DNA of 23,146 nucleotides. Source: a virus. The DNA is taken from positions 1 through 23,146 of IMG/VR virus record IMGVR_UViG_3300040806_002408. The stretch is one strand, 5' to 3'. The position numbers and the translations under genes are program-made. Below are positions 1,810-21,964 of this stretch, one piece after another (positions within the stretch are counted from its first letter, which is position 1; the number at the start of each line of letters is the position of its first letter). Below the pieces are notes generated by a model. The model had not been told where the DNA came from. It did no database searches and worked only from the letters and a program-made list of their open reading frames with translations.

Positions 1810-2437
1810 ATCTTCTTTGACAGCGCCTTTGCGCTTTTCTTAAAAGCCTAAAGTTATTTACTGTAACTGCACCTGTTGTTAAACCTGAGGCAAGTTTCCA
1901 TCCATACCAAAAATTTTCATCATCAGATGACAAAGCACCAAGTCCACCAATAACAAAAAGTTTTATTCCTATCATTTCATGTATCTCAGGTACTTTTGGT
2001 AGTAATGGATTTGCTTCGCTTATACAATCATATTTTAATCCACGATAAGTTGAATAGACATCAAGTATTTGAGAAGAGAAAAATAAAATATCTATCATTC
2101 GTTTTTCTCTTTCAGTCCAGTGGTCTATTGTAAAATTGTGTTCTTCTTTTACTTGCCATTTTGGGTCGTATCGTAATTGATTGAGTGTAGGAACAAACTC
2201 AGGACCATGAGGTAAATTAATAATTGCACCATTTGACATTATTCTTGCTTTACCAACAACGACTCTTTGTGCTGTTAATTGATTGTAAGGAGCTGTATGT
2301 CCTAGTCTAATAAGTTCTTTTCGTGCTTCTGAGAGTTCAGAAATAAATGGGTCCGTTGGAACAAAGCCTGAGACTGGAACTGCTAATAAAAGCAATCCTA
2401 GTAATAAACTACTTAGTCGTCGCGATAAAAATTCCAT
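1808..2437 (-). CDS. exported/membrane protein at the end of the curli-like operon, hypothetical
   Basis: This 209-residue protein has a signal sequence or anchor at residues about 5-24 (SRRLSSLLLGLLLLAVPVSG). Its C-terminal half contains a hydrophobic region around ILDVYSTYRGLKYDCISEANPL and a second hydrophobic helix (GIKLFVIGGLGAL). The D-x-x-S/T-T-Y-x-G-L...E-x-N-P pattern resembles small membrane proteins of the DUF5658 type, though I hold that loosely. The ATG follows GAGGAA by 5 bases and overlaps the end of the cyclase gene by 29 bases. It is therefore the last gene of the operon and probably works at the envelope. Confidence 0.7.
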   Translation of the reverse strand: MEFLSRRLSSLLLGLLLLAVPVSGFVPTDPFISELSEARKELIRLGHTAPYNQLTAQRVVVGKARIMSNGAIINLPHGPEFVPTLNQLRYDPKWQVKEEHNFTIDHWTEREKRMIDILFFSSQILDVYSTYRGLKYDCISEANPLLPKVPEIHEMIGIKLFVIGGLGALSSDDENFWYGWKLASGLTTGAVTVNNFRLLRKAQRRCQRR

Positions 2438-4454
2438 CCCAGTTCCTCGGCAGATCTTGCGTTTTCATATATTCACAACGCTCAATCCACATTTTGTAAT
2501 AACCTTGCATTTGTCCTTCAAAGCAACCCATAAGGTCATTACATATTTTTATTGCTTTATCAAAATTTTGTTTCTGATAATTTGAATGCATTGCTTCGTG
2601 CATCTCTGCTGGTTTAATATATTTATCTTTATTAAGGTCTAGTACAGTGTATATACCAACTCCTACTGATTTTCCTTTTACAGCAAGATCATCTACTTTT
2701 AAGAAAAGGAATTCTTCAGGATTACATCTCCTAACTGTTTCTTCTCCTAATAAAAGTAAACATCCGTATTCTTTACATTTAGACTCGATTCTTGCAGCAG
2801 TTGATACTGCATCTCCAAGAATGTCGTAACTGTGTCGTGATGTACTTCCCATTTCACCAACATAACCAAGACCGCTATTGATGCCAGCACCCATACCAAT
2901 GGGTGGTCTACCTTGTTTAATAATCTCTTCATTAAATTTCTCTACCGCTCGTAACATATTAATACCAGTCATCACCGCAGTTTTAGCGTGGTCGGTATCT
3001 TCCATTGGAGCATTATGTATATGCATACTTGCGTCTCCAATGTATTTGATAATCATTCCATTTGCATCTAGAACAGGTTGTGTAATGGCATCCATATAAC
3101 CATTCATCAATGTAGTCAGTCCTTTAACGTCATCTCCAAAGCTTTCGCCTAAAGGAGTAAATCCTCGAAGATCCGAGAATACAATACTTACATCTTTTTT
3201 CATTCCGTCCTTGACAAGTGAAGGATTTTGTTGTAAAATAGTAACCACTTCTGGAGAACAATAACCAGCGAACTGTTTCATGATTTCGCGTTTCTCCAAA
3301 AATGTTAAATAGTATTTGTTGAATGAAGATTGTGCAAAAACCACTAAGGAAGCTAATGAAACCAAAGATGCATCAACAAAGGTTAATGAGGAAGTCCAAA
3401 ACCAGTGACTCACTCCGTATCCGGAACCAACGAGAAGAAGACTCGTTATCACCCCAAGAGTTATGGGAAAAACATAGACCGCTACAAGGATTCCTAGACT
3501 TACTAGGACCAGAAAGAAAAGCTCAAATATTGGCTTCCAGTCGGGAATCGTTATTTGAACGCCTGAGAGGACGGTCTGAATTAACTGGGCTTGAACTTCG
3601 TGGGGATACATTGCACCCGTTGGGGTTGGTACTGGATTAGAATAGCCTTCTGCGGTTATTCCAAATACTAAAACTTTACCACTAGGTAATGGTTCTGTTA
3701 TTGACTGCGATGGAAATTGATTCCAAAAGGCAATTGGTATTTCAGCAAAACTATTTGTTGTGATAGGATCTTGCTTTCCTATTCGTACCCATTCAACTCC
3801 ATTAGAGCCTACTTTCATTTGATAGCTTGGTTCTCCTGTGTACACTCGAAGGGTGTCAAGTGCCAAGCTGGGGTACTGTAATCCATTTGCATTGATAACC
3901 AAAGGAGCTCTTCGCACGACGCCGGTGGGTTGGTCAGGGATAGCAACGGTGGCACCAACACCAAAAGCCCAAGAACTGAGAGCATCAATAGGGAATAAAA
4001 GCCCTGGGAATTTATAAAGCCAATTTTCATTTTGTTCTCCGAAAGTAGCAACACCTACAAAGGTGCCAACTCCATCTGATGTTTGTTGAGTGGGAGCAGA
4101 AGATAATACAACAGCTTTTTCTGCCATTGCTTCTGCGAGTAAATGATCTTCTTTAAATCTATCTTCTTCAGAGTATATTACGTTAAGAACATATAAGCTG
4201 TCGCCAGGACCGTTCCGTATGTAATCAGCAACAGAACCACGAGGCCACGGATACTGACCTTCGGCAGAGATTGCTCGTTCGTCGATGTTGACGAGGACAA
4301 TTTCTTCAACAATCTCTTTTTCTTTATTCTGCTGTAGTGAATCATAATATGCATACTCTATACTTTGAACTATTGACGGATTATTTATTGATAAAAGAGC
4401 AAAGCCTGTGATAGTTATTAAAACAGTCCACCATTTTGTTAATTGCTTAAGCAT
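2409..4454 (-). CDS. CHASE2-domain transmembrane adenylate cyclase (class III)
   Basis: This 681-residue protein would make cAMP from ATP under control of a periplasmic sensor. An N-terminal anchor (about 8-24) leads into a CHASE2 domain (about 35-300, with VLVNIDERAI and YPWPRG). A cluster of three membrane helices (about 307-375) and a class III cyclase domain (about 418-605) follow. Catalytic positions visible by family pattern are metal aspartates D428 (FSDLRGF) and D474 (YIGDA), adenine-selecting K470 and D544, and transition-state R555. The partner Asn of the usual GDxVNxAxR motif is Ser551 (GDAVSTAAR), which may weaken catalysis. About 75 extra residues follow the cyclase. It lies 6 bases after the second curlin-like gene. 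The domain call is firm; activity is inferred. Confidence 0.92.
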   Translation of the reverse strand: MLKQLTKWWTVLITITGFALLSINNPSIVQSIEYAYYDSLQQNKEKEIVEEIVLVNIDERAISAEGQYPWPRGSVADYIRNGPGDSLYVLNVIYSEEDRFKEDHLLAEAMAEKAVVLSSAPTQQTSDGVGTFVGVATFGEQNENWLYKFPGLLFPIDALSSWAFGVGATVAIPDQPTGVVRRAPLVINANGLQYPSLALDTLRVYTGEPSYQMKVGSNGVEWVRIGKQDPITTNSFAEIPIAFWNQFPSQSITEPLPSGKVLVFGITAEGYSNPVPTPTGAMYPHEVQAQLIQTVLSGVQITIPDWKPIFELFFLVLVSLGILVAVYVFPITLGVITSLLLVGSGYGVSHWFWTSSLTFVDASLVSLASLVVFAQSSFNKYYLTFLEKREIMKQFAGYCSPEVVTILQQNPSLVKDGMKKDVSIVFSDLRGFTPLGESFGDDVKGLTTLMNGYMDAITQPVLDANGMIIKYIGDASMHIHNAPMEDTDHAKTAVMTGINMLRAVEKFNEEIIKQGRPPIGMGAGINSGLGYVGEMGSTSRHSYDILGDAVSTAARIESKCKEYGCLLLLGEETVRRCNPEEFLFLKVDDLAVKGKSVGVGIYTVLDLNKDKYIKPAEMHEAMHSNYQKQNFDKAIKICNDLMGCFEGQMQGYYKMWIERCEYMKTQDLPRNWDGIFIATTK

Positions 4455-6424: not shown

Positions 6425-7112
6425 TTTCAGAATCTATGTCCAAAGTGATTATTCCATTACAAGTAGTTACACCTGTTGGACAAGTACCACTGATTTGGTT
6501 AATATCAATATCAGCAGAAGAACCAACGTGAGTCACGTTAATTTCATGCTCCGCTCCGTCTTTCTGTAATGTCTTGATATTATTACTTCCACCAGTAATA
6601 TCAAAATTCCAAATTGCGTCGTCAACATCAATGTCGACATCAAAAATGTTACTGTCTCCAATAACTGTTAAATCAAAATCTAATCTTTCAGCACTTGCAT
6701 TATAACCTTGGTCAAAGTCCATAGTGTTAGAATCACCAGTAAAGTCAACATCAAATGTTGAACTATCCGATGAACCAACATAACCTACGTTCCAATCCCA
6801 AATGTTAGAATCTCCAGTCCATAATAAGTTAGCAGTTGTACTGTCACCTATGTATGTTCCGAATAATAAGTTTTCGTTACCAATTTGGTCAATGTTAAAA
6901 GTTAACGATGAACCTGTAATTGGCATAGCGCTTGAGCTTGACGAAAAATCATCTAACCCAATTTTGTTACCGTAACCATATTGGTCGATATACAAAGTAA
7001 GAGTATCACCATCTTGTTCGATGTTGATTTCATTATCGTCAGTCGCTTGTGCGAATGCTACATTGTTGAAAGAGAATAAACATAATAAAGATAGGCCTAA
7101 TATTCTTTTCAT
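6378..7112 (-). CDS. curlin-like secreted repeat protein 1
   Basis: This 244-residue protein has a classic signal peptide (MKRILGLSLLCLFSFNNVAFA, cleavage near 21). The mature part is rich in Asp, Ser, Asn and Gly, with repeated G-D-S-N turns between alternating hydrophobic strands (WTGDSNIWDWN, FTGDSNTMDFDQ, VIGDSNIFDVD, ITGGSNNIKTLQ) at roughly 25-30 residue spacing. Early units keep the curlin-like Q-x-G-x-x-N form (DQYGYGN, DQIGNEN). A cysteine pair (CPTGVTTC) lies near the C-terminus, as in the second repeat protein. Its ATG shares a base with the csgG stop, so it is translated with the secretion channel. It is probably a CsgG substrate. The sequence is too degenerate to call it CsgA outright. 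Confidence 0.75.
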   Translation of the reverse strand: MKRILGLSLLCLFSFNNVAFAQATDDNEINIEQDGDTLTLYIDQYGYGNKIGLDDFSSSSSAMPITGSSLTFNIDQIGNENLLFGTYIGDSTTANLLWTGDSNIWDWNVGYVGSSDSSTFDVDFTGDSNTMDFDQGYNASAERLDFDLTVIGDSNIFDVDIDVDDAIWNFDITGGSNNIKTLQKDGAEHEINVTHVGSSADIDINQISGTCPTGVTTCNGIITLDIDSENATIQINQKDSSNDS

Positions 7113-8056
7113 TATTCTTCCTCTATTTTATTGTTAATAGTCCAGAAGCCACGTTCGTCGCCCTGGTATACCATCTCTAGTACTGCAGCTTCAATTGCTG
7201 TTCGTACTGCATATGTCACACTCTCATTATTTCCAATCCCGTCCTCATATTCAATCAATTGAGTACCTTGCTCTATAAAGCGGAAGACGTCTCCTCCTGA
7301 ACCGTAGCTCAAGATTGATTTCTTTGCTTGGACATTTAATAATATCTCACCTGTAAGAACCGAAACTGCACGCACAGATACTGTGACTACATCTTGACGA
7401 TACTGACGGCTAAAGCTAATACCTAAAGTTCTAGCTCCTCGGCCTCCGGTCTTTACATTACTATCATAACCTATGATGCCGCCCTCAATAATCATTCCTG
7501 CGAATAATAAAGGTCCAACACCTTTTGGTTCTTCGCCCAGTTTCTTCGCCGCTTCATCACGACCTGAACGAATAATCTGTCTTTCTCTAACAAGAGCATC
7601 AATCCCTTGTCTTTCTACAACTCTAAACCAAGTTCCCCCACCTGCTGTTTTCAGAGCGTCTATTAATAATTCTGTTCCACCTTGAGTCACAGCAGTTGAA
7701 AAACTTTGTCCTGTCTGTGAATCTTTTCTTTGTCCTGTTTTATCTATAAAATTGTAAACAGCAACCACAGGCATATTTTCTGCAGGTGGTAAATTCAGTA
7801 AATCAATGTATGAAGGTAACTTTACAACTTCAGGTTGCTCTACACATATTTGTTTTGTCTCAATATATTTACGAGTACCTGTTTTGATTTTATCAATTAC
7901 TAAGCCATCTCCATTTTCATCTCTAACTTTATTAAATCCTTGCGCATACTTACCTTCACCGTATTCACAGTTCGCAGGTCCTTCTGACCACTGCGGCATT
8001 TGCGCACAACTTGCTAAAATTAATGTTGAGAGGAGTGCGGATAATAATTTAGCCAT
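7112..8056 (-). CDS. csgG: CsgG curli-secretion channel lipoprotein
   Basis: This 314-residue outer-membrane lipoprotein of the type VIII (curli) secretion pathway forms a ring pore for curlin export. The ATG at 8056 gives a proper lipoprotein signal with lipobox LASC (Cys17); an upstream TTG would not. Segments match the E. coli protein closely, including VAVYNFIDKTGQRK, FSTAV, FRVVERQGIDALVRERQIIR, GGIIGYDSNVKTGGRGAR, LTGEILLNV, SILSYG and VFRFIE. At the pore loop the Phe of the constriction is kept (F119), but the usual Asn before it is Ser and the Tyr is not conserved. About 60 extra residues follow the lipid Cys, including a calcium-loop-like DENGDGLVID. It overlaps csgF by 8 bases, and a curlin-like gene follows at once. 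Confidence 0.95.
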   Translation of the reverse strand: MAKLLSALLSTLILASCAQMPQWSEGPANCEYGEGKYAQGFNKVRDENGDGLVIDKIKTGTRKYIETKQICVEQPEVVKLPSYIDLLNLPPAENMPVVAVYNFIDKTGQRKDSQTGQSFSTAVTQGGTELLIDALKTAGGGTWFRVVERQGIDALVRERQIIRSGRDEAAKKLGEEPKGVGPLLFAGMIIEGGIIGYDSNVKTGGRGARTLGISFSRQYRQDVVTVSVRAVSVLTGEILLNVQAKKSILSYGSGGDVFRFIEQGTQLIEYEDGIGNNESVTYAVRTAIEAAVLEMVYQGDERGFWTINNKIEEE

Positions 8057-8561
8057 TTGGATCGCTTCCAAAGTTTCCTGTTCCTATCGGAATCTCAATA
8101 ACAGTTGTCGTACCATCTTCATCTACAATTGTCATCTTAATAAATTCTGTACCGTCTGCATTTGTAATAACTTCATATGTTACTGTTGAACCTTCTAAAA
8201 CAAAAGATCCAAACCTTACTGCGTTATCGTTAGAGAACATATTGTCCACCAACTGTTTTGCTAACTGAGCATAAATTCTACTCTCAAGGTTTCTTATAAA
8301 CTTTGATAACGTTGAATTGTCCAATTCTCTTTGTGCTGCACGTTCAGCTGCATCTAATGCATCTCTGATTGCTTTCTTTCTTGTATGTTCTTGATTCTCG
8401 ATAGTGAGATAATGAGCACCAGTTCCAACACCGCTGAAACTTGGATTTTTAAACTTATGTACGATAGGTTCTCCGTATGCTTTACCTGCTGCTAAAAACA
8501 GATACATTATTACAATAACCCAACCTATTCCTAATAAAGCTTTATCAGTCTTGTTGTCCAT
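8049..8561 (-). CDS. csgF: CsgF-like curli assembly factor
   Basis: This 170-residue protein probably caps the CsgG pore and couples secretion to fibre nucleation. The ATG at 8561 has a well-placed GGTGAG and is preferred to a GTG three codons upstream. A hydrophobic export segment (about 11-27) leads to the CsgF N-terminal signature IVHKFKNPSFSGVGTGAHYL, comparable to the F-R-N-P-x-F-G-G segment that enters the CsgG channel in E. coli. A helix (residues about 52-108) and C-terminal strands follow (VTYEVITNADGTEFIKMTIVDEDGTTTVIEIP), also as in CsgF. It is longer than the enterobacterial protein. The overlap with csgG and the shared late promoter fit joint production. Confidence 0.88.
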   Translation of the reverse strand: MDNKTDKALLGIGWVIVIMYLFLAAGKAYGEPIVHKFKNPSFSGVGTGAHYLTIENQEHTRKKAIRDALDAAERAAQRELDNSTLSKFIRNLESRIYAQLAKQLVDNMFSNDNAVRFGSFVLEGSTVTYEVITNADGTEFIKMTIVDEDGTTTVIEIPIGTGNFGSDPNG

Positions 8562-8817
8562 CTTTCTCACCTTTTTTCTTCAATTCTTCTATTTCTTTAT
8601 ACTTAAGAACAACATCAACCTTTTGTTGTAATCTTATAAGATCTTGGTCAAGCATTCTCATTCTATCAATTAACCTAATCAAAGCCATGTGTTGCTTATC
8701 AATTTCCGGCTGAAGCTTGTCGTTTACAAACCTCCAAACAAAATATACAAAGTACCCAAGTCCTACCACCATCACAGCAGGAAATCCGTACTCATTAACT
8801 AAATTCGCAATGTCCAT
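8545..8817 (-). CDS. small membrane protein with coiled coil (holin-like topology)
   Basis: This 90-residue protein has one N-terminal membrane segment (about 10-30, YGFPAVMVVGLGYFVYFVWRF). A heptad-patterned amphipathic helix (about 38-75, LIRLIDRMRMLDQDLIRLQQKV) and a charged tail follow. This topology is shared by small phage holin-like proteins and by many phage membrane accessory proteins. The length and arrangement do not decide between them. It overlaps csgF by 17 bases and lies 4 bases after the gene upstream, so it belongs to the curli-like operon. A role in membrane permeabilisation is possible but unproven. Confidence 0.75.
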   Translation of the reverse strand: MDIANLVNEYGFPAVMVVGLGYFVYFVWRFVNDKLQPEIDKQHMALIRLIDRMRMLDQDLIRLQQKVDVVLKYKEIEELKKKGEKDGQQD

Positions 8818-9754: not shown

Positions 9755-9783
9755 TTGACATCATAAAGAAACTATAGTATAAT
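9755..9783 (+). promoter_or_regulatory. consensus sigma70 promoter, copy A of a repeated element
   Basis: Perfect TTGACA (9755-9760), 17-base spacer and TATAAT (9778-9783). The 36 bases from 9751 differ at a single position from the promoter of the large RNA at 14114. Confidence 0.9.
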
Positions 9784-10148: not shown

Positions 10149-10235
10149 GCCTCGGTGGTGAAATAGGTAAACACAAGAGACTTAAAATCTCTCGCTCGTA
10201 AGAGCTTGTCGGTTCGATTCCGACTCGAGGCACCA
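10149..10235 (+). tRNA. tRNA-Leu (anticodon UAA)
   Basis: It is an 87-nt class II tRNA with encoded CCA. Acceptor GCCTCGG pairs with TCGAGGC. The anticodon stem AGAGA/TCTCT encloses CTTAAAA (anticodon TAA), followed by a long variable arm and a GGTTCGATTCC T-arm. It reads UUA/UUG, favoured in AT-rich genomes. Confidence 0.95.
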
Positions 10236-10240
10236 AATAT

Positions 10241-10316
10241 AGGACTGTAGCTCAATGGTTAGAGCATCCGTCTTATAAGCGGAAGGTCGGTGGTTCAACT
10301 CCACCCAGTCCTACCA
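10241..10316 (+). tRNA. tRNA-Ile (anticodon UAU)
   Basis: It is a 76-nt tRNA with encoded CCA. Acceptor AGGACTG pairs with CAGTCCT. The anticodon stem TCCGT/GCGGA encloses CTTATAA (anticodon TAT), and the T-arm is GGTGG/CCACC. It would read AUA directly, whereas most bacteria use a CAU anticodon modified to lysidine. Confidence 0.92.
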
Positions 10317-10323
10317 AGTAGTA

Positions 10324-10411
10324 GGAGAAGTGGCAGAGTGGTTGAATGCACAGGTCTTGAAAACCTGCGAACTGAAAGGTTCCGTGAGTTCGAATCTCAC
10401 CTTCTCCGCCA
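10324..10411 (+). tRNA. tRNA-Ser (anticodon UGA)
   Basis: It is an 88-nt class II tRNA with encoded CCA. Acceptor GGAGAAG pairs with CTTCTCC, anticodon stem CAGGT/ACCTG encloses CTTGAAA (anticodon TGA), and there is a long variable arm, as expected for serine. Confidence 0.94.
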
Positions 10412-10415
10412 AATC

Positions 10416-10492
10416 CGGAGTATAGCGCAGCCTGGTAGCGCATCTGCTTTGGGAGCAGAGGGTCATAGGTTCGAATCCTATTACTCCGACCA
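10416..10492 (+). tRNA. tRNA-Pro (anticodon UGG)
   Basis: It is a 77-nt tRNA with encoded CCA. Acceptor CGGAGTA pairs with TACTCCG, and the C-start is typical of proline. The anticodon loop TTTGGGA gives anticodon TGG. It is the last of four tightly spaced tRNAs, 5-8 bases apart. Confidence 0.94.
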
Positions 10493-14117: not shown

Positions 14118-14146
14118 TTGACATCATAATGAAACTATAGTATAAT
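14118..14146 (+). promoter_or_regulatory. consensus sigma70 promoter of the large RNA, copy B
   Basis: Perfect TTGACA (14118-14123), 17-base spacer and TATAAT (14141-14146). Transcription would begin near 14153. The 36 bases from 14114 match the element at 9751 with one difference. Confidence 0.92.
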
Positions 14147-14152
14147 AGTATC

Positions 14153-14818
14153 ATATTGAGGGAAACACCCCACCAACAGAGACAATTGGTGAATGGATAA
14201 CCTGAGTCGAATAGAAGATCTTATCAATCGGAAGGCTCAAAGATATAGGTGGACAACCCGACTGGCAGCTGAAACTGTTGAGTATATCCAATCGTAACAG
14301 ATATATTCGGCAGAGTAATGAGAGGGCCAGTACTGGAAAGTACGTAATTATACGGGTCAGAACGAATCAATACAGTGGGTATGAAAGCGTCTCCGTGTAT
14401 GAAGAAACGCTCGATACTGAAGTCGGCCGAGAGCCGCGCACTGTGAAAGAGATAGGGTTAGGGTTTGCACCCAAACCGACACAAGACGGCAGTCTAGGAT
14501 CTTTCTCCTTTCACGACAGATAGTAGGTGAGAATCCTACCTGAAGGTCTGGAGTTAACAAGTAACAGATAAGTCCGAGAGACGTACCTACGAATTTTAAG
14601 TTTTTTAGATTAGAATACTACGATTAACAATTCTACACTATTTAACGAATTACGTTAACAAAGTATTCTAATCACCAAGGTAGTTGAAACCCCTGACTAG
14701 TCATCAGGTCCTTTAGAAAGGCAGTAAGACCAATTGACGATTGTGACACTGAAGTTCAATACCTAGGCGGACCTTAACATACCTTTGATAGGCGTATATG
14801 GAAGGTCCGCCGCTTTTT
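14153..14818 (+). ncRNA. large structured noncoding RNA, about 665 nt (GOLLD/ROOL-class candidate)
   Basis: A perfect promoter in front and a strong terminator behind bound about 665 bases with no credible reading frame. The region is clearly richer in G+C than its surroundings and full of short inverted repeats. Stems I can pair include 14171-14176/14186-14191, 14424-14427/14433-14436, 14443-14449/14508-14514 with 14462-14467/14472-14477 inside it, 14523-14527/14535-14539, 14608-14618/14663-14673 (11 bp, enclosing 14642-14647/14653-14658) and 14692-14696/14704-14708. A tRNA follows at once. Size, ornate folding and a tRNA-side location in a phage fit the GOLLD or ROOL giant RNAs. I do not see tmRNA, RNase P or complete self-splicing intron signatures. 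The family name is a guess; that it is a structured RNA is well supported. Confidence 0.78.
14766..14818 (+). terminator. Rho-independent terminator of the large RNA
   Basis: GGCGGACCTT (14766-14775) pairs perfectly with AAGGTCCGCC (14802-14811), and a T-tract follows (GCTTTTT). The 26-base apical part can pair further (ATAC with GTAT), so it may double as the last domain of the RNA. Confidence 0.85.
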
Positions 14819-14822
14819 ATTC

Positions 14823-14897
14823 GGCCCGTTCGTCTAGTGGTTAGGACACATGGTTTTCATCCATGCAACAGGAGTTCGATTCTCCTACGGGCTACCA
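14823..14897 (+). tRNA. tRNA-Glu (anticodon UUC)
   Basis: It is a 75-nt tRNA with encoded CCA. The D-arm region TTCGTCTAGTGG is typical of tRNA-Glu. The anticodon stem CATGG/CCATG encloses TTTTCAT (anticodon TTC), and the T-arm is GGAGT/CTCCT. The terminal acceptor pair is G-T, slightly irregular. It begins 5 bases after the terminator of the large RNA. Confidence 0.93.
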
Positions 14898-16156: not shown

Positions 16157-17467
16157 TTAGAATAAGTTAGCGATTGTAACTTTTCTGTAGTACTTGTTAA
16201 GATCAGCAGTAAGTGCTCCAAGACCTTGGCTAGAAACGTCACCTTGAGCAAATGGGTTTGAAACCATTCCGTAACGTGTCTTAAATCCAATTTTTGGTTG
16301 GAAGCTGTTTTCACCAACCGCACGAACCATTTGTAATGGTACGTATGGGCAGTAGAATAAACCTGCATCAAATGCAGATGAACCCTTGTAACCAACTACT
16401 AAGTAGTTAGCACCTGCGAATGGGTCAACATATACTCTGAATCTACCGTTAAGAACACCAGCAAAAGTATTACCTGTGTCATCAACTTCTAGAGAGTTAG
16501 AGTTTAGAGCAGGAGTGTAATCCAACACACCAGCCATTTGTAAAGCAGAGGCTACGTCAGAAGAACAAATAACAACGTTACCTTTTCCTCTTCTTGTTCC
16601 TTTAGCAATTGCATTAGCTTCTTGCTCGATTTGGAACATTAAACCTTTGAACTTCTCAACAGACCATCTTCCGTTTGCATCAACGTCTAAGTCGAATGTA
16701 CCCGGAGTAGCAGCGCCAGCAGCACCAACAACAGCAACGTCATAAATTGTTCTAATAACTTCACGGTTGATTTCTGTTAAGATTTCAGTTTGAAGAATAT
16801 TAGCTAATTCAGTTTCTGCGTCTAGGCCGTGAACAGCTTTAAGATCTTGAGCAAGCTCAGTTGTGTATTCTGCTTTTAAAGCACGAGTCTTAGCAGCAAC
16901 AGTTACTTTCTCGATAGAGAATGCCATTTCTGCATAGTTAGTACCAGCACCGTCGCCTAAGGCTTCAGCAGCAGCTGTAGTCATACCTGTACCAGTAGTG
17001 ACAGCAGCACCAGGTAAACTATTAGCGTGAGTACCTGTACCAGAGAAGTCTGTATCAGCTTCGTTGTACATTGCTTCTGCACCACCTTGTGAACCATATC
17101 TTGCGCGCATTGCGAAGATTAATCCTGTAGGACCAGTCATAGGCTGAACACCACAGATATCGTATGCGATCATGTTAGGAACAGCACGTCTTACCAATGA
17201 GATAAGAATTGGGTCATAACCTGCACCAGGACCTGCAGCAGCAGAACCACCTGTAAATCCACCGGTTGCGCCGACGTCATTAGTAGGTGCTTCAGAAAGC
17301 AAGCTAGTCATGTTAGCAGATAAGTCACCAGTTTCAGCTAGTGCTCTTTCTGTGTTCTCAAGAATAGTAGCTGTAACTGCTTTTCTATGAGAATCGTTAA
17401 TTGGTGAAAAAGATTCGTGCGCTAAAATTGGCTCCCACTTTTCCACTAGTCTTGTATAGTTATCCAT
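16157..17467 (-). CDS. gp23: major capsid protein gp23
   Basis: This 436-residue protein forms the hexamers of the prolate T4-like head. The N-terminal stretch (about 1-59) ends in LLSE followed by APTNDVGATGG, a fit to the L/I-x-E site cut by the gp21 protease during maturation. Typical gp23 segments follow: YDPILISLVRRAVPNMIAYD, CGVQPMTGPTGLIFAMRARY, GKGNVVICSSDVASAL and the C-terminal KIGFKTRYGMVSNPF. It is shorter than T4 gp23 (about 520) and close to the length in marine T4-like phages. GGAG precedes the ATG, and the gene is followed by the terminator at 16082. It is an excellent marker gene for classification. Confidence 0.97.
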   Translation of the reverse strand: MDNYTRLVEKWEPILAHESFSPINDSHRKAVTATILENTERALAETGDLSANMTSLLSEAPTNDVGATGGFTGGSAAAGPGAGYDPILISLVRRAVPNMIAYDICGVQPMTGPTGLIFAMRARYGSQGGAEAMYNEADTDFSGTGTHANSLPGAAVTTGTGMTTAAAEALGDGAGTNYAEMAFSIEKVTVAAKTRALKAEYTTELAQDLKAVHGLDAETELANILQTEILTEINREVIRTIYDVAVVGAAGAATPGTFDLDVDANGRWSVEKFKGLMFQIEQEANAIAKGTRRGKGNVVICSSDVASALQMAGVLDYTPALNSNSLEVDDTGNTFAGVLNGRFRVYVDPFAGANYLVVGYKGSSAFDAGLFYCPYVPLQMVRAVGENSFQPKIGFKTRYGMVSNPFAQGDVSSQGLGALTADLNKYYRKVTIANLF

Positions 17468-17523: not shown

Positions 17524-18507
17524 TTACTTCTTAGTGTTGAAAGCTTCAACTAGAGCATTAATAGAAGTGTAATCAGAAGCTGGTTTAGTTACTTCCTGTT
17601 CTTCTAGAATAATTTCGTCATTTTCTTCTTGAACATCCTTATTTTCTACAATAGGTTTGTCGCTGAAGAAAGACTCCTTAATTACTTGAAGATTTTCTGC
17701 ATAAGCTTCTAAATCTTCAATATCAAGCTTTTCAGACAATACTTTCAATCTCTCTACCTGGTTCTCAGATAAACCTTCTGAAAGTTCGTCAAATTTTTGT
17801 TCTGCTTTGAAAGTTTGAATTTCTTTCTGTAATTCAATGTTCTCATTTACGAGGTCATTTGCTTTTCCTTCCAATTCAGAAACAGTTGTTTCTAAGTTAG
17901 ACACAACGTCAACTGATTCTTCAGAAACAGTAACATTATGTTCTACGAATAAGTTCTTAAGACCTGACATTAATGATTCCGCCATCTCAACCTTAATTCC
18001 AGATTCGATTGCGATTTCATTCTCAGACATCCACTCAGATACAACGTAATCTAAATACTTATCAACATTCTCAGAAATGGTATCTAATTTCTCAGTTACT
18101 GCTTCTTCTAATGCTTCGTCTAAAGACTTAGTTAATTCTTCACGAATTGTCTCAGTTCTTTTATTTACTTCTTCGTTTAATGCGGCTTCAAATACAAGAC
18201 TAATCTTGCCTTTGAATTCTTCGGATAAATCTTCGCCTTCAATGATTGACTCAATTGAAGATTCTACAACTACTTCCTCTACGGTTTCAACTTCAGCGTC
18301 AACTTCAGTTTCTTCAGCAGTAGGTACAGGCTTGCCTGCATCTGTTTGGCCAGGAACTACTTTCTTACCGTCAGCTGCTCCTTTTGGCTCGTCAGTTGTT
18401 GTCTTCTTCAGCTTGTCCTTTTTACCTTCTCCACCTTCAGGTGTTACAGCATCAGGGACCATTGAGACTCCATCATCAGCAACGAATTTTTCTTCTACGT
18501 TTGCCAT
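17524..18507 (-). CDS. gp22: prohead core scaffold protein gp22
   Basis: This 327-residue, highly acidic, Glu/Lys/Val-rich protein has long helical and coiled segments (VSNLETTVSELEGKANDLV, then ENIELQKEIQTFKAEQ). That is the character of the T4 prohead scaffold, which fills the core and is degraded by gp21. Several L/I-x-E sites are present. Position between gp21 and gp23 supports the call. The N-terminal 95 residues are a low-complexity Lys/Pro/Glu segment. AAAGGAG lies before the ATG, and a perfect late box sits 66-73 bases upstream. Confidence 0.88.
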   Translation of the reverse strand: MANVEEKFVADDGVSMVPDAVTPEGGEGKKDKLKKTTTDEPKGAADGKKVVPGQTDAGKPVPTAEETEVDAEVETVEEVVVESSIESIIEGEDLSEEFKGKISLVFEAALNEEVNKRTETIREELTKSLDEALEEAVTEKLDTISENVDKYLDYVVSEWMSENEIAIESGIKVEMAESLMSGLKNLFVEHNVTVSEESVDVVSNLETTVSELEGKANDLVNENIELQKEIQTFKAEQKFDELSEGLSENQVERLKVLSEKLDIEDLEAYAENLQVIKESFFSDKPIVENKDVQEENDEIILEEQEVTKPASDYTSINALVEAFNTKK

Positions 18508-18585: not shown

Positions 18586-19263
18586 TTAATTTCTCAAAGT
18601 ACGGATAAATGTTTCAAACATTCTTGTTGCCGTTGCTTCGTCAATAGTTTTTACTACTCTGTTAACCTTTTTCTCAACTTCTTCTTGGATATCCTGAATA
18701 ACTTCAGTAGCTCTCCAATTCCCAGAAGCGATATCGTAGTAATATTCAACGTTCTCCATGATACCATTTACGAACGCGTTTGGTGCTGAAGGGTCAGTAA
18801 CAATATCTACAGTAGAAAGGTGGAAATCCTTCTGCACTTCCATAACTCCATTTCTACCTGCCTTGACCGAACCAAGACCTCGAGTCGAAACTCCAATCTT
18901 TACTCCTTCGTCTAATAGGCTTTTAACGATTTCCCCCATCGGTGTTGATAAGATTTTAGCTTTACCATAAAAATCGTTGCCATCTCGTCTCATGTCAGTA
19001 ATTAGATGTGAAACGCGATCCCCGTTGATTTGTGGACCATCAGGGTGACCTAGTTCTCCAAGAGCACGTTTAGTTTCAATAAACTCTTTATTATAGCGAT
19101 CCATTTCGCTTTCTAAAGTTGCACTTGGATAAATTCTTCCATTGCGATTTTTAATATCGCCTTGCATAAAAATTCCTTCGATAAAGTAATTCTTTTTGCC
19201 GTCTTCTTTAGCTTCAGTAATTACCTCTACGGAATCTTCTCTATATTCTGTAATTAAATTCAT
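18586..19263 (-). CDS. gp21: prohead core protease gp21
   Basis: This 225-residue serine-type protease trims the capsid and scaffold proteins in the prohead. Probable catalytic residues are His73 (LGELGHPDGP) and Ser126 (KIGVSTRGLGSV). An acidic partner lies in DIVTDPSAPNAF (D153 or D157), where the D-P-S-A-P-N-A motif is characteristic of the family. The start NYFIEGIFMQGDIKNRNGRIYP is also typical. Length agrees with T4 gp21 (about 212). It is coupled by ATGA to the upstream gene. Confidence 0.95.
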   Translation of the reverse strand: MNLITEYREDSVEVITEAKEDGKKNYFIEGIFMQGDIKNRNGRIYPSATLESEMDRYNKEFIETKRALGELGHPDGPQINGDRVSHLITDMRRDGNDFYGKAKILSTPMGEIVKSLLDEGVKIGVSTRGLGSVKAGRNGVMEVQKDFHLSTVDIVTDPSAPNAFVNGIMENVEYYYDIASGNWRATEVIQDIQEEVEKKVNRVVKTIDEATATRMFETFIRTLRN

Positions 19264-20443: not shown

Positions 20444-21964
20444 TTAATATGCATCATCTTCTGCATGTCCACCTTGAGCCTTTTCATCTGCAATTTCATC
20501 TTCCATTCTTTGCGCATCTTCTTCAGACATTTGCAGAATATTTTGAGTAATCCACTGATGAGAGAAATACTTTCCTGTGTAATCGGATATATCCCTTAAA
20601 GTATTCAATCTTTCTCTCAGAATCTCAGCTTCCTTTAATTCCTCAAAATAATTATCTTTAACAAAATCATAACGTATATCATTACGGATTTCGTTAAATT
20701 CCTCAGGTGTTAAAATTCCTTTTAGAATTAATTGTTTCTCTAATACCATATTGAATATCCATGAGAAACGTGCACGAATTCTTCTAATAAATTTACCAAA
20801 CTTCAGTTCATCTCGAGTAATCTCTGATGTTCTACCGAAGGTTGCCATTGCCTCTGGTTCTAAACGCGATAAGGGTACTTTCAACGCTTTATATAATTTA
20901 CGTTGAAAATACTCTAAGTTTTCGTTACCACTCAACCCTGGTGCATTACCTCCTGCGAGGGTATCAACTTCAGTTGACCTTTCTCCACCACGACGAGGGA
21001 ACCAAAAGTCCTCAGTCATTGTTAGCATCTTACGAGAATCAGTAATCTGTCCTGATTCTGAATTGTACTGTAACTTGTTCTTATGTCGAGCCATCATATC
21101 TCTAAGATATTGCTCTGCCTTATTCTTTGGCAAGTTACCTACATCAATATAAAAAATTCTTCTTTCTGGTGCTCTTGTTAACGTGTATATTACAACAGCA
21201 TCTTCCAACATTCTCAGCTGATTTAAAGCTTTACCTGCTGGATGTAAATGAGATAATACTAAACTATTATTCTCATTCATCAATCCTGAAGTTACTCTTG
21301 CTATAGAGTCCTTCGCAATCTTTACACCTGTTGTACTTGAAGTACCACCGGCTCCTGTACCCGCATTCTGAAACCCATTTTCAGAATACATATAATACTC
21401 ATTTTTAACTTTCTTAACAGGTATTCCTGAATGCTTATCTTTACTCTTCTTGTCTACTTCTCGTATCAATTTTAGTTTACGAGGGTCAACATATCTTAAT
21501 TCTAAAACACCTTTCTTTACATCCTCAGGGTCAATAATAATATGATAATTTAATCTTCCGTCAACGTAGAACTTGAAAAACATATCATATGCATTGTTTG
21601 TAAAATCAAATAATGCAAGTATATTGTCAAATTCTTTAACAACCGACTTCTTTACTTTATCTGATAAAACTGTTTCTCCTAAAGAGATTTCAACAACTCT
21701 ATCATTTGTATCAACACTAATTGCCTCATTCACAATGTCATCAATTGCCTGAGAAACCTCAGGCTGCATTGACATGTGACGATATCTTGTAATTAACTCA
21801 GATTCCGTTTTAGCGGAACCTTCCATATCAAGTATCGTATTATAAAAACCACCTAGAGCATTACCAACCGTAATCGCTCCATCATCATTAGAGGGTTCGG
21901 CAAAAGAAACCGGTAAAGTGGTCTCCTCCTCTGCCCTCTTTATATCAAAGCCAAAAATTTTCAA
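20444..21964 (-). CDS. gp20: portal vertex protein gp20
   Basis: This 506-residue protein forms the dodecameric portal through which DNA enters the head and to which the neck and tail attach. Recognisable T4-portal segments include SELITRYRHMSMQPEVSQAI, DDIVNEAI, LRMLEDAVVIYTLTRAPERR, FYIDVGNLPKNKAEQYLRDM, EDFWFPRRGGERSTEVDTL and KFGKFIRRIRARFS. Length matches T4 gp20 (about 524). The gene appears to start at TTG (21964), with AGGTGA upstream; no in-frame ATG occurs before residue 48, which would delete the conserved start. It follows gp19 by 19 bases. Confidence 0.96.
   Translation of the reverse strand: MKIFGFDIKRAEEETTLPVSFAEPSNDDGAITVGNALGGFYNTILDMEGSAKTESELITRYRHMSMQPEVSQAIDDIVNEAISVDTNDRVVEISLGETVLSDKVKKSVVKEFDNILALFDFTNNAYDMFFKFYVDGRLNYHIIIDPEDVKKGVLELRYVDPRKLKLIREVDKKSKDKHSGIPVKKVKNEYYMYSENGFQNAGTGAGGTSSTTGVKIAKDSIARVTSGLMNENNSLVLSHLHPAGKALNQLRMLEDAVVIYTLTRAPERRIFYIDVGNLPKNKAEQYLRDMMARHKNKLQYNSESGQITDSRKMLTMTEDFWFPRRGGERSTEVDTLAGGNAPGLSGNENLEYFQRKLYKALKVPLSRLEPEAMATFGRTSEITRDELKFGKFIRRIRARFSWIFNMVLEKQLILKGILTPEEFNEIRNDIRYDFVKDNYFEELKEAEILRERLNTLRDISDYTGKYFSHQWITQNILQMSEEDAQRMEDEIADEKAQGGHAEDDAY

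Follow-up and report, generated by a model that had tools for sequence, protein, structure and literature searches.

A Large Structured RNA Gene in T4-Related Ocean Phages, Best Read as a New Class

The stretch of DNA analysed here in full (hereafter, the window) is a 23,146-base fragment of IMG/VR record IMGVR_UViG_3300040806_002408, and its positions 14118–14818 almost certainly constitute a real gene for a structured RNA. A preliminary description of the window had proposed that a large, structured noncoding RNA is made here from a promoter of its own and ended by its own terminator; this was borne out by a promoter with a 12/12 match to the consensus, a terminator made of a 10-bp stem and T5, and a fold that covaries among relatives. 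Judged from sequence comparison, the RNA is best read as a new class distinct from both GOLLD and ROOL, and it is carried by several dozen T4-related, uncultivated phages of the ocean, a subset of the T4-like marine phages. Few structured phage RNAs are as large as GOLLD and ROOL, whose roles are still unexplained; an unrelated, similar family from a different phage lineage, with many diverged natural variants, allows the question of why phages produce RNAs of this kind to be asked independently, and the compact size of its core (about 400–490 nt) makes structure work feasible.

The RNA Gene and Its Transcription Signals

The main elements of the locus, all on the plus strand, are the following:

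14118–14146, plus strand: sigma-70 consensus promoter TTGACA-17-TATAAT (12/12 match, 17-bp spacer), driving the RNA
14153–14818, plus strand: whole RNA, about 666 nt, delimited from the promoter, the terminator, the homologues, and the lack of a conserved ORF
14153–14591, plus strand: conserved core RNA (about 400–490 nt), from alignments of 22 and 40 distinct members
14478–14502, plus strand: most conserved stretch, GACACAAGACGGCAGTCTAGGATCT, which served as a search motif
14592–14818, plus strand: accessory 3' extension, lost or exchanged in other lineages
14608–14673, plus strand: 12-bp stem (14608–14619/14662–14673) with a conserved cap (ACGATTAACAATTC...GAATTACGTTAACA)
14766–14818, plus strand: terminator, with a 10-bp stem (14766–14775/14802–14811), the conserved loop CATACCTTTGATAGGCGTATATGG, and T5
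14823–14897, plus strand: tRNA-Glu (UUC), beginning 5 nt past the T tract, with no promoter of its own seen in between

The start of the RNA was placed at 14153 from the distance to the -10 box, and ATATTGAGGG at that position begins 6 nt past the promoter end. Perfect promoter sites are expected at 0.02 per strand, according to mononucleotide shuffles of the window. At the other end, the arms GGCGGACCTT (14766–14775) and AAGGTCCGCC (14802–14811) are followed by GC and T5 (14814–14818); this terminator escaped the automatic scan on account of its loop of more than 8 nt, and compensatory variants of its stem were found among relatives (GGCGGACCTT, GGCGGATCTT, and GGCGGAACTT). The downstream tRNA-Glu would probably be transcribed via read-through of the terminator. 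The region had also been taken for a stem-rich, G+C-richer stretch without genes, and so it proved: G+C content was 0.45–0.46 in the core versus about 0.31 in the adjoining genes, and the two ORFs within 14118–14818, of 81 aa (plus strand, TTG start) and 67 aa (minus strand), were not preserved in relatives. The full transcript folded better than 20 out of 20 shuffles, a moderate effect (z = -2.2).

Perfect TTGACA-17-TATAAT promoters were detected on the plus strand of the window at 9755, 12632, 14118, and 15409, each with ACTA immediately 5' of its -35 box, and those at 9755, 14118, and 15409 have a T-rich upstream stretch in common. They may represent a promoter class used across the phage.

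Relatives in Marine Phage Genomes

The gathering of homologues and the check for covariation that the preliminary description had called for yielded 58 loci beyond that of the window, with compensatory changes among them. The first relatives were retrieved through protein similarity of the adjoining capsid genes, and the set was enlarged via motif scans of IMG/VR and profile searches. There were 40 distinct complete cores including that of the window, with 55–100% identity to the latter, and core alignments were made with 22 and later with 40 distinct members. The RNA was found once per record, including a record of 156 kb. Members with long inserts, excluded when a covariance model was built from part of the core, were recovered by that model with E values of about 5e-14 to 3e-15.

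The promoter, with its 17-bp spacer and ending exactly 6 nt before the RNA start, was present in all 55 relatives having enough upstream DNA, with -35/-10 match scores of 12/12 (42 relatives), 11/12 (12), and 10/12 (1); part of the member set had been picked by a motif containing TATAAT, and the members found through RNA-internal motifs showed the same promoter.

Searches outside this set gave no further members. The cultured T4-like phages HTVC008M, Mosig, Melnitz, phiN3, AG-345-F15, and C48C1 had no match below E = 0.28, and when five diverse members, whole or in part, were compared by blastn with 50,697 phage records, the search returned nothing or only terminator-like stretches. An overly lax motif scan of GTDB genomes gave no confirmed member among the matches listed, and no match was found in 397 genomes of the order of one Pelagibacteraceae genome, searched without a positive control. 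The RNA family was described nowhere in the open-licence papers covered by literature searches.

Conserved Fold of the Core

The core is predicted from the alignments to fold into two domains closed by long-range pairing, with these helices:

14154–14159/14367–14372, plus strand: closing helix of domain I, TATTGA/TCAATA, unvarying in 22 sequences
14263–14266/14326–14329, plus strand: stem TGGC/GCCA in an arm of domain I of variable length, covarying
14388–14393/14578–14583, plus strand: long-range closing helix of domain II, CGTCTC/GAGACG, from RNAalifold, with changes on both sides
14396–14418, plus strand: hairpin with the conserved 13-nt loop GAAGAAACGCTCG (14401–14413) on a covarying stem (14396–14400/14414–14418)
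14441–14444/14564–14567, plus strand: inner long-range helix, CTGT/ACAG, significant against a phylogeny-aware null
14450–14453/14499–14502, plus strand: helix AGAT/ATCT, paired in 100% of cells, with A-U/G-C/G-U and U-A/C-G variants
14456–14477, plus strand: hairpin whose base pairs GGT (14456–14458) with ACC (14475–14477), with changes on both sides

A compensatory change from U-A to C-G was found in the closing helix of domain I in members L014 and L083 (CATTG/CAATG). The closing helix of domain II corresponds to columns 266–274/517–526 of the RNAalifold alignment, and in member L189 it takes the form CCCAAC/GTTGGG. In the hairpin at 14396–14418, four of the five stem pairs change on both sides, and its arms paired at 0.96 with their own partners versus 0.72 when exchanged (p = 0.0002); the hairpin at 14456–14477 gave the same p value on arm exchange (p = 0.0002), with all three counted pairs varying on both sides. 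The same test, with a simple arm definition, was not significant for the hairpin that follows ACACA (p = 0.09). When three helices were tested jointly, 98.9% of the cells were paired and 9 of the 12 pairs were altered on both sides, a joint score reached by none of 500 shuffles, and shifting the partner by 1–3 columns brought pairing down to 30–50%.

Against a phylogeny-aware null, three independent helices scored above every null alignment, namely a hairpin absent from the copy in the window, the stem 14396–14399/14415–14418, and the long-range helix 14441–14444/14564–14567, and the helix 14263–14266/14326–14329 was weakly above it (E = 0.20). The per-pair version of this test, which singled out one pair only, is underpowered, and the helix-based version was adopted for that reason. 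Since the phylogeny-aware null clears three helices and, per pair, a single pair, support for much of the fold comes from counts in the alignment. In addition, a resemblance of GGATCTTTCTCCTTTC (within 14495–14515) to the 16S rRNA 3' end was considered and dropped, as the pyrimidine stretch is not CCUCC in relatives.

Modular 3' Part

The locus had been regarded as a single unit of about 665 nt; the gene is real, and it turned out to be modular, with the RNA proper at 14153–14591 and an accessory part at 14592–14818. In many members (among them L083, L264, and L268) the RNA ends directly after the core, and in L082, L110, and L141 it ends at the counterpart of the hairpin at 14608–14673, which in L082-like members is the terminal hairpin and is followed by a T tract. 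The group of the window continues into an additional 3' part, and the terminator loop of this part is kept even in L215 despite a separate, later terminator. Member L134 retains both ends and lacks most of the core. This pattern looks like an exchange of modules between phages.

The perfect stem of 11 bp proposed at 14608–14618/14663–14673 does exist and extends to 12 bp (14608–14619/14662–14673), with a fold z of -5.4 versus shuffles. The arms by its cap paired in all 10 distinct sets, with 40 of 40 pairs formed versus 23.4 after exchange (p = 5e-5).

Comparison with Known RNA Classes

Kinship with GOLLD or ROOL, which the preliminary description had evoked, found no support in the searches: at E <= 10, the GOLLD model (RF02032) matched nothing in the record of the window and four member records, and the ROOL model (RF03087) gave no match at this threshold either, the control searches for ROOL being likewise without a match. 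The alternative it had left room for, a new class, is the probable one, as the homologues form a family of their own and Rfam has no match to it. With Rfam 15, only tRNAs were found in the window, and the RNA region gave chance-level matches at a permissive threshold (E <= 10), none of them to GOLLD or ROOL; the window and eleven family loci together, at gathering and permissive thresholds, gave only tRNAs or chance matches.

Having its own promoter and terminator, a conserved fold, and no ORF, the RNA can be placed among the large free-standing structured noncoding RNAs of phages, which are a functional kind and not a sequence family. GOLLD, which occurs in phages and prophages and frequently close to tRNA genes, is likewise a large structured RNA with one end conserved and the other variable (PMC12286853), although its universal part is the 3' one and here it is the 5' one. 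ROOL, frequently near tRNA genes as well, is also a phage or prophage RNA with a role unexplained, and measures about 600 nt (PMC12286853), whereas the core described here has only about 400–490 nt. OLE is another large stand-alone structured RNA, in its case from Bacillota and not from phages, and it binds the ribosomal protein bS21 (PMC12054373); some members of the present family adjoin a phage bS21 gene, where binding would be hypothetical, and the Rfam OLE model had no match by cmscan in the RNA region or in further members.

Pelagibacter phage Mosig (EXVC030M) provides a parallel for a sizeable RNA gene in a T4-like marine phage, in its case a cultured one, since it carries a permuted tmRNA gene (L434:6142–6480). 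A tmRNA, recognizable by a tRNA-like end and a tag-coding frame, was detected neither by ARAGORN nor by Rfam, be it in the window or in the scanned members.

Gene Settings and Proposed Function

The closeness to a tRNA gene noted in the preliminary description is true of the copy in the window and is not a trait of the family, as other members precede hemC, bS21, or other genes. In the group of the window, the RNA lies 5' of tRNA-Glu and small genes, with gp23 convergent; the tRNA-Glu follows the RNA in this window-like subset only, and many relatives have no tRNA there. In 14 loci, the RNA lies 5' of hemC (Pfam Porphobil_deam), in 6 it lies 3' of gp23 on the same strand, and in 12 it lies 3' of a gene with a nuclease domain. 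A bS21 gene was found 0.6–1.1 kb past the RNA start in ten loci, all with the nuclease gene upstream; in this nuclease-linked subset, to which the adjacency is confined, the bS21 gene is preceded by a promoter of its own. In HTVC008M, bS21 is present and the RNA absent. Such differing gene settings around an intact RNA unit favour an action in trans.

The existence of an own transcription unit, a conserved fold, several gene settings, and no match in Rfam points to a trans-acting structural RNA of a new class, and we lean towards the view that it would be made early in infection and act through its fold. The RNA probably has a job of its own in infection, as GOLLD and ROOL do, and the strong expression and importance to infection put forward in the preliminary description may be surmised from the promoter. 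The host RNA polymerase would transcribe it early from the consensus promoter, and the product would act in trans via its own three-dimensional shape, either by itself, in an assembly of several copies, or together with a protein; GOLLD and ROOL are broadly thought to act likewise through their own shape. The likeliest sphere of action would be host takeover or translation, because one subset adjoins a tRNA gene and another a phage bS21 gene, neighbours that suggest a testable link with translation. Formation of a homo-oligomeric nanocage is a trait of GOLLD, and nanocage assembly is one of ROOL. Whether the present RNA makes a third such phage family, as an RNA-only particle or an RNA–bS21 complex that would alter the host ribosome or shelter phage tRNA, is a more speculative extension, which we hold to be rather unlikely.

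Among other explanations, the one with most credit, albeit limited, is that of an RNA decoy, which would bind and thereby tie up the ribosome or some protein of the host or phage, such as bS21, RNA polymerase, or a defence nuclease. The conserved loops on covarying stems (GAAGAAACGCTCG and the cap at 14620–14661) resemble recognition sites, and the adjacency of bS21 in one subset agrees with the binding of this protein by OLE RNA (PMC12054373); however, a simple decoy would not require such a size or domains closed over a long range. A ribozyme or a catalytic RNA derived from an intron would fit with the complex conserved core and its long-range pairing, but it is improbable, as the Rfam models of group I introns, group II introns, and RNase P gave no match (E <= 10 in the window, E <= 1 in eleven further loci) and there are no exons around the RNA, because its 5' end lies 6 nt past the -10 box and a terminator closes the other end. 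Very improbable, too, is a leader acting in cis, as attenuator or riboswitch, on the tRNA-Glu or hemC gene that follows: the former begins 5 nt past the T tract and the latter is the next gene in 14 loci, but the downstream genes vary (tRNA-Glu, hemC, bS21, structural or small ORFs), and several members have a strong terminator and then a new promoter. Finally, the transcript can hardly be an mRNA for small proteins despite the 81-aa TTG ORF in the window, which is lost in relatives, where stop-free stretches vary between 41 and 107 codons, frames are shifted by indels, and conservation lies in stems and not in codons.

The starting substrate of the C5 pathway of tetrapyrrole synthesis is tRNA-Glu; a phage-encoded porphobilinogen deaminase (HemC) lies just 3' of the RNA at L082:1082–1906 and in 13 other loci, and in L086 tRNA-Glu and hemC adjoin. 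In addition, a further RNA-like unit, free-standing and about 190 nt long, was found 3' of the bS21 gene (L105:4787–4980, and also in L102, L148, L218, and L220), and L120 has a variant of it about 0.95 kb past the RNA start. This unit has a perfect promoter and pairing ends (GGTTGGTGG/CCACCAACC) followed by T6; it had no match in Rfam, and its overall fold was no better than that of shuffles.

The Phage and Other Features of the Window

The window encodes T4-type head proteins, all on the minus strand: gp23 (16157–17467), the scaffold protein (17524–18507), the prohead protease (18586–19263), and the portal protein (20444–21964). The nearest capsid proteins from cultured phages have only 60–65% identity to its gp23. 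Also on the minus strand are genes for the curli secretion proteins CsgG (7112–8071) and CsgF (8049–8570), which are known from pelagimyophages (PMC7029224), and relatives of CsgG are present in phages HTVC008M and Melnitz. From these parallels, SAR11 or a similar marine bacterium would be a plausible host, although not an established one given the low capsid identity.

The block that contains CsgG, CsgF, and a FecR-domain protein also includes a gene (2409–4454, minus strand) for a 681-aa protein of this T4-like phage with CHASE2 and adenylate/guanylate cyclase domains. Four tRNA genes (Leu, Ile, Ser, and Pro) are clustered at 10149–10492, about 4 kb 5' of the RNA. Finally, G+C content rises to 0.40 at 1510–1808, amid AT-rich DNA where clear genes are scarce, and a possible terminator lies near 1790–1808.
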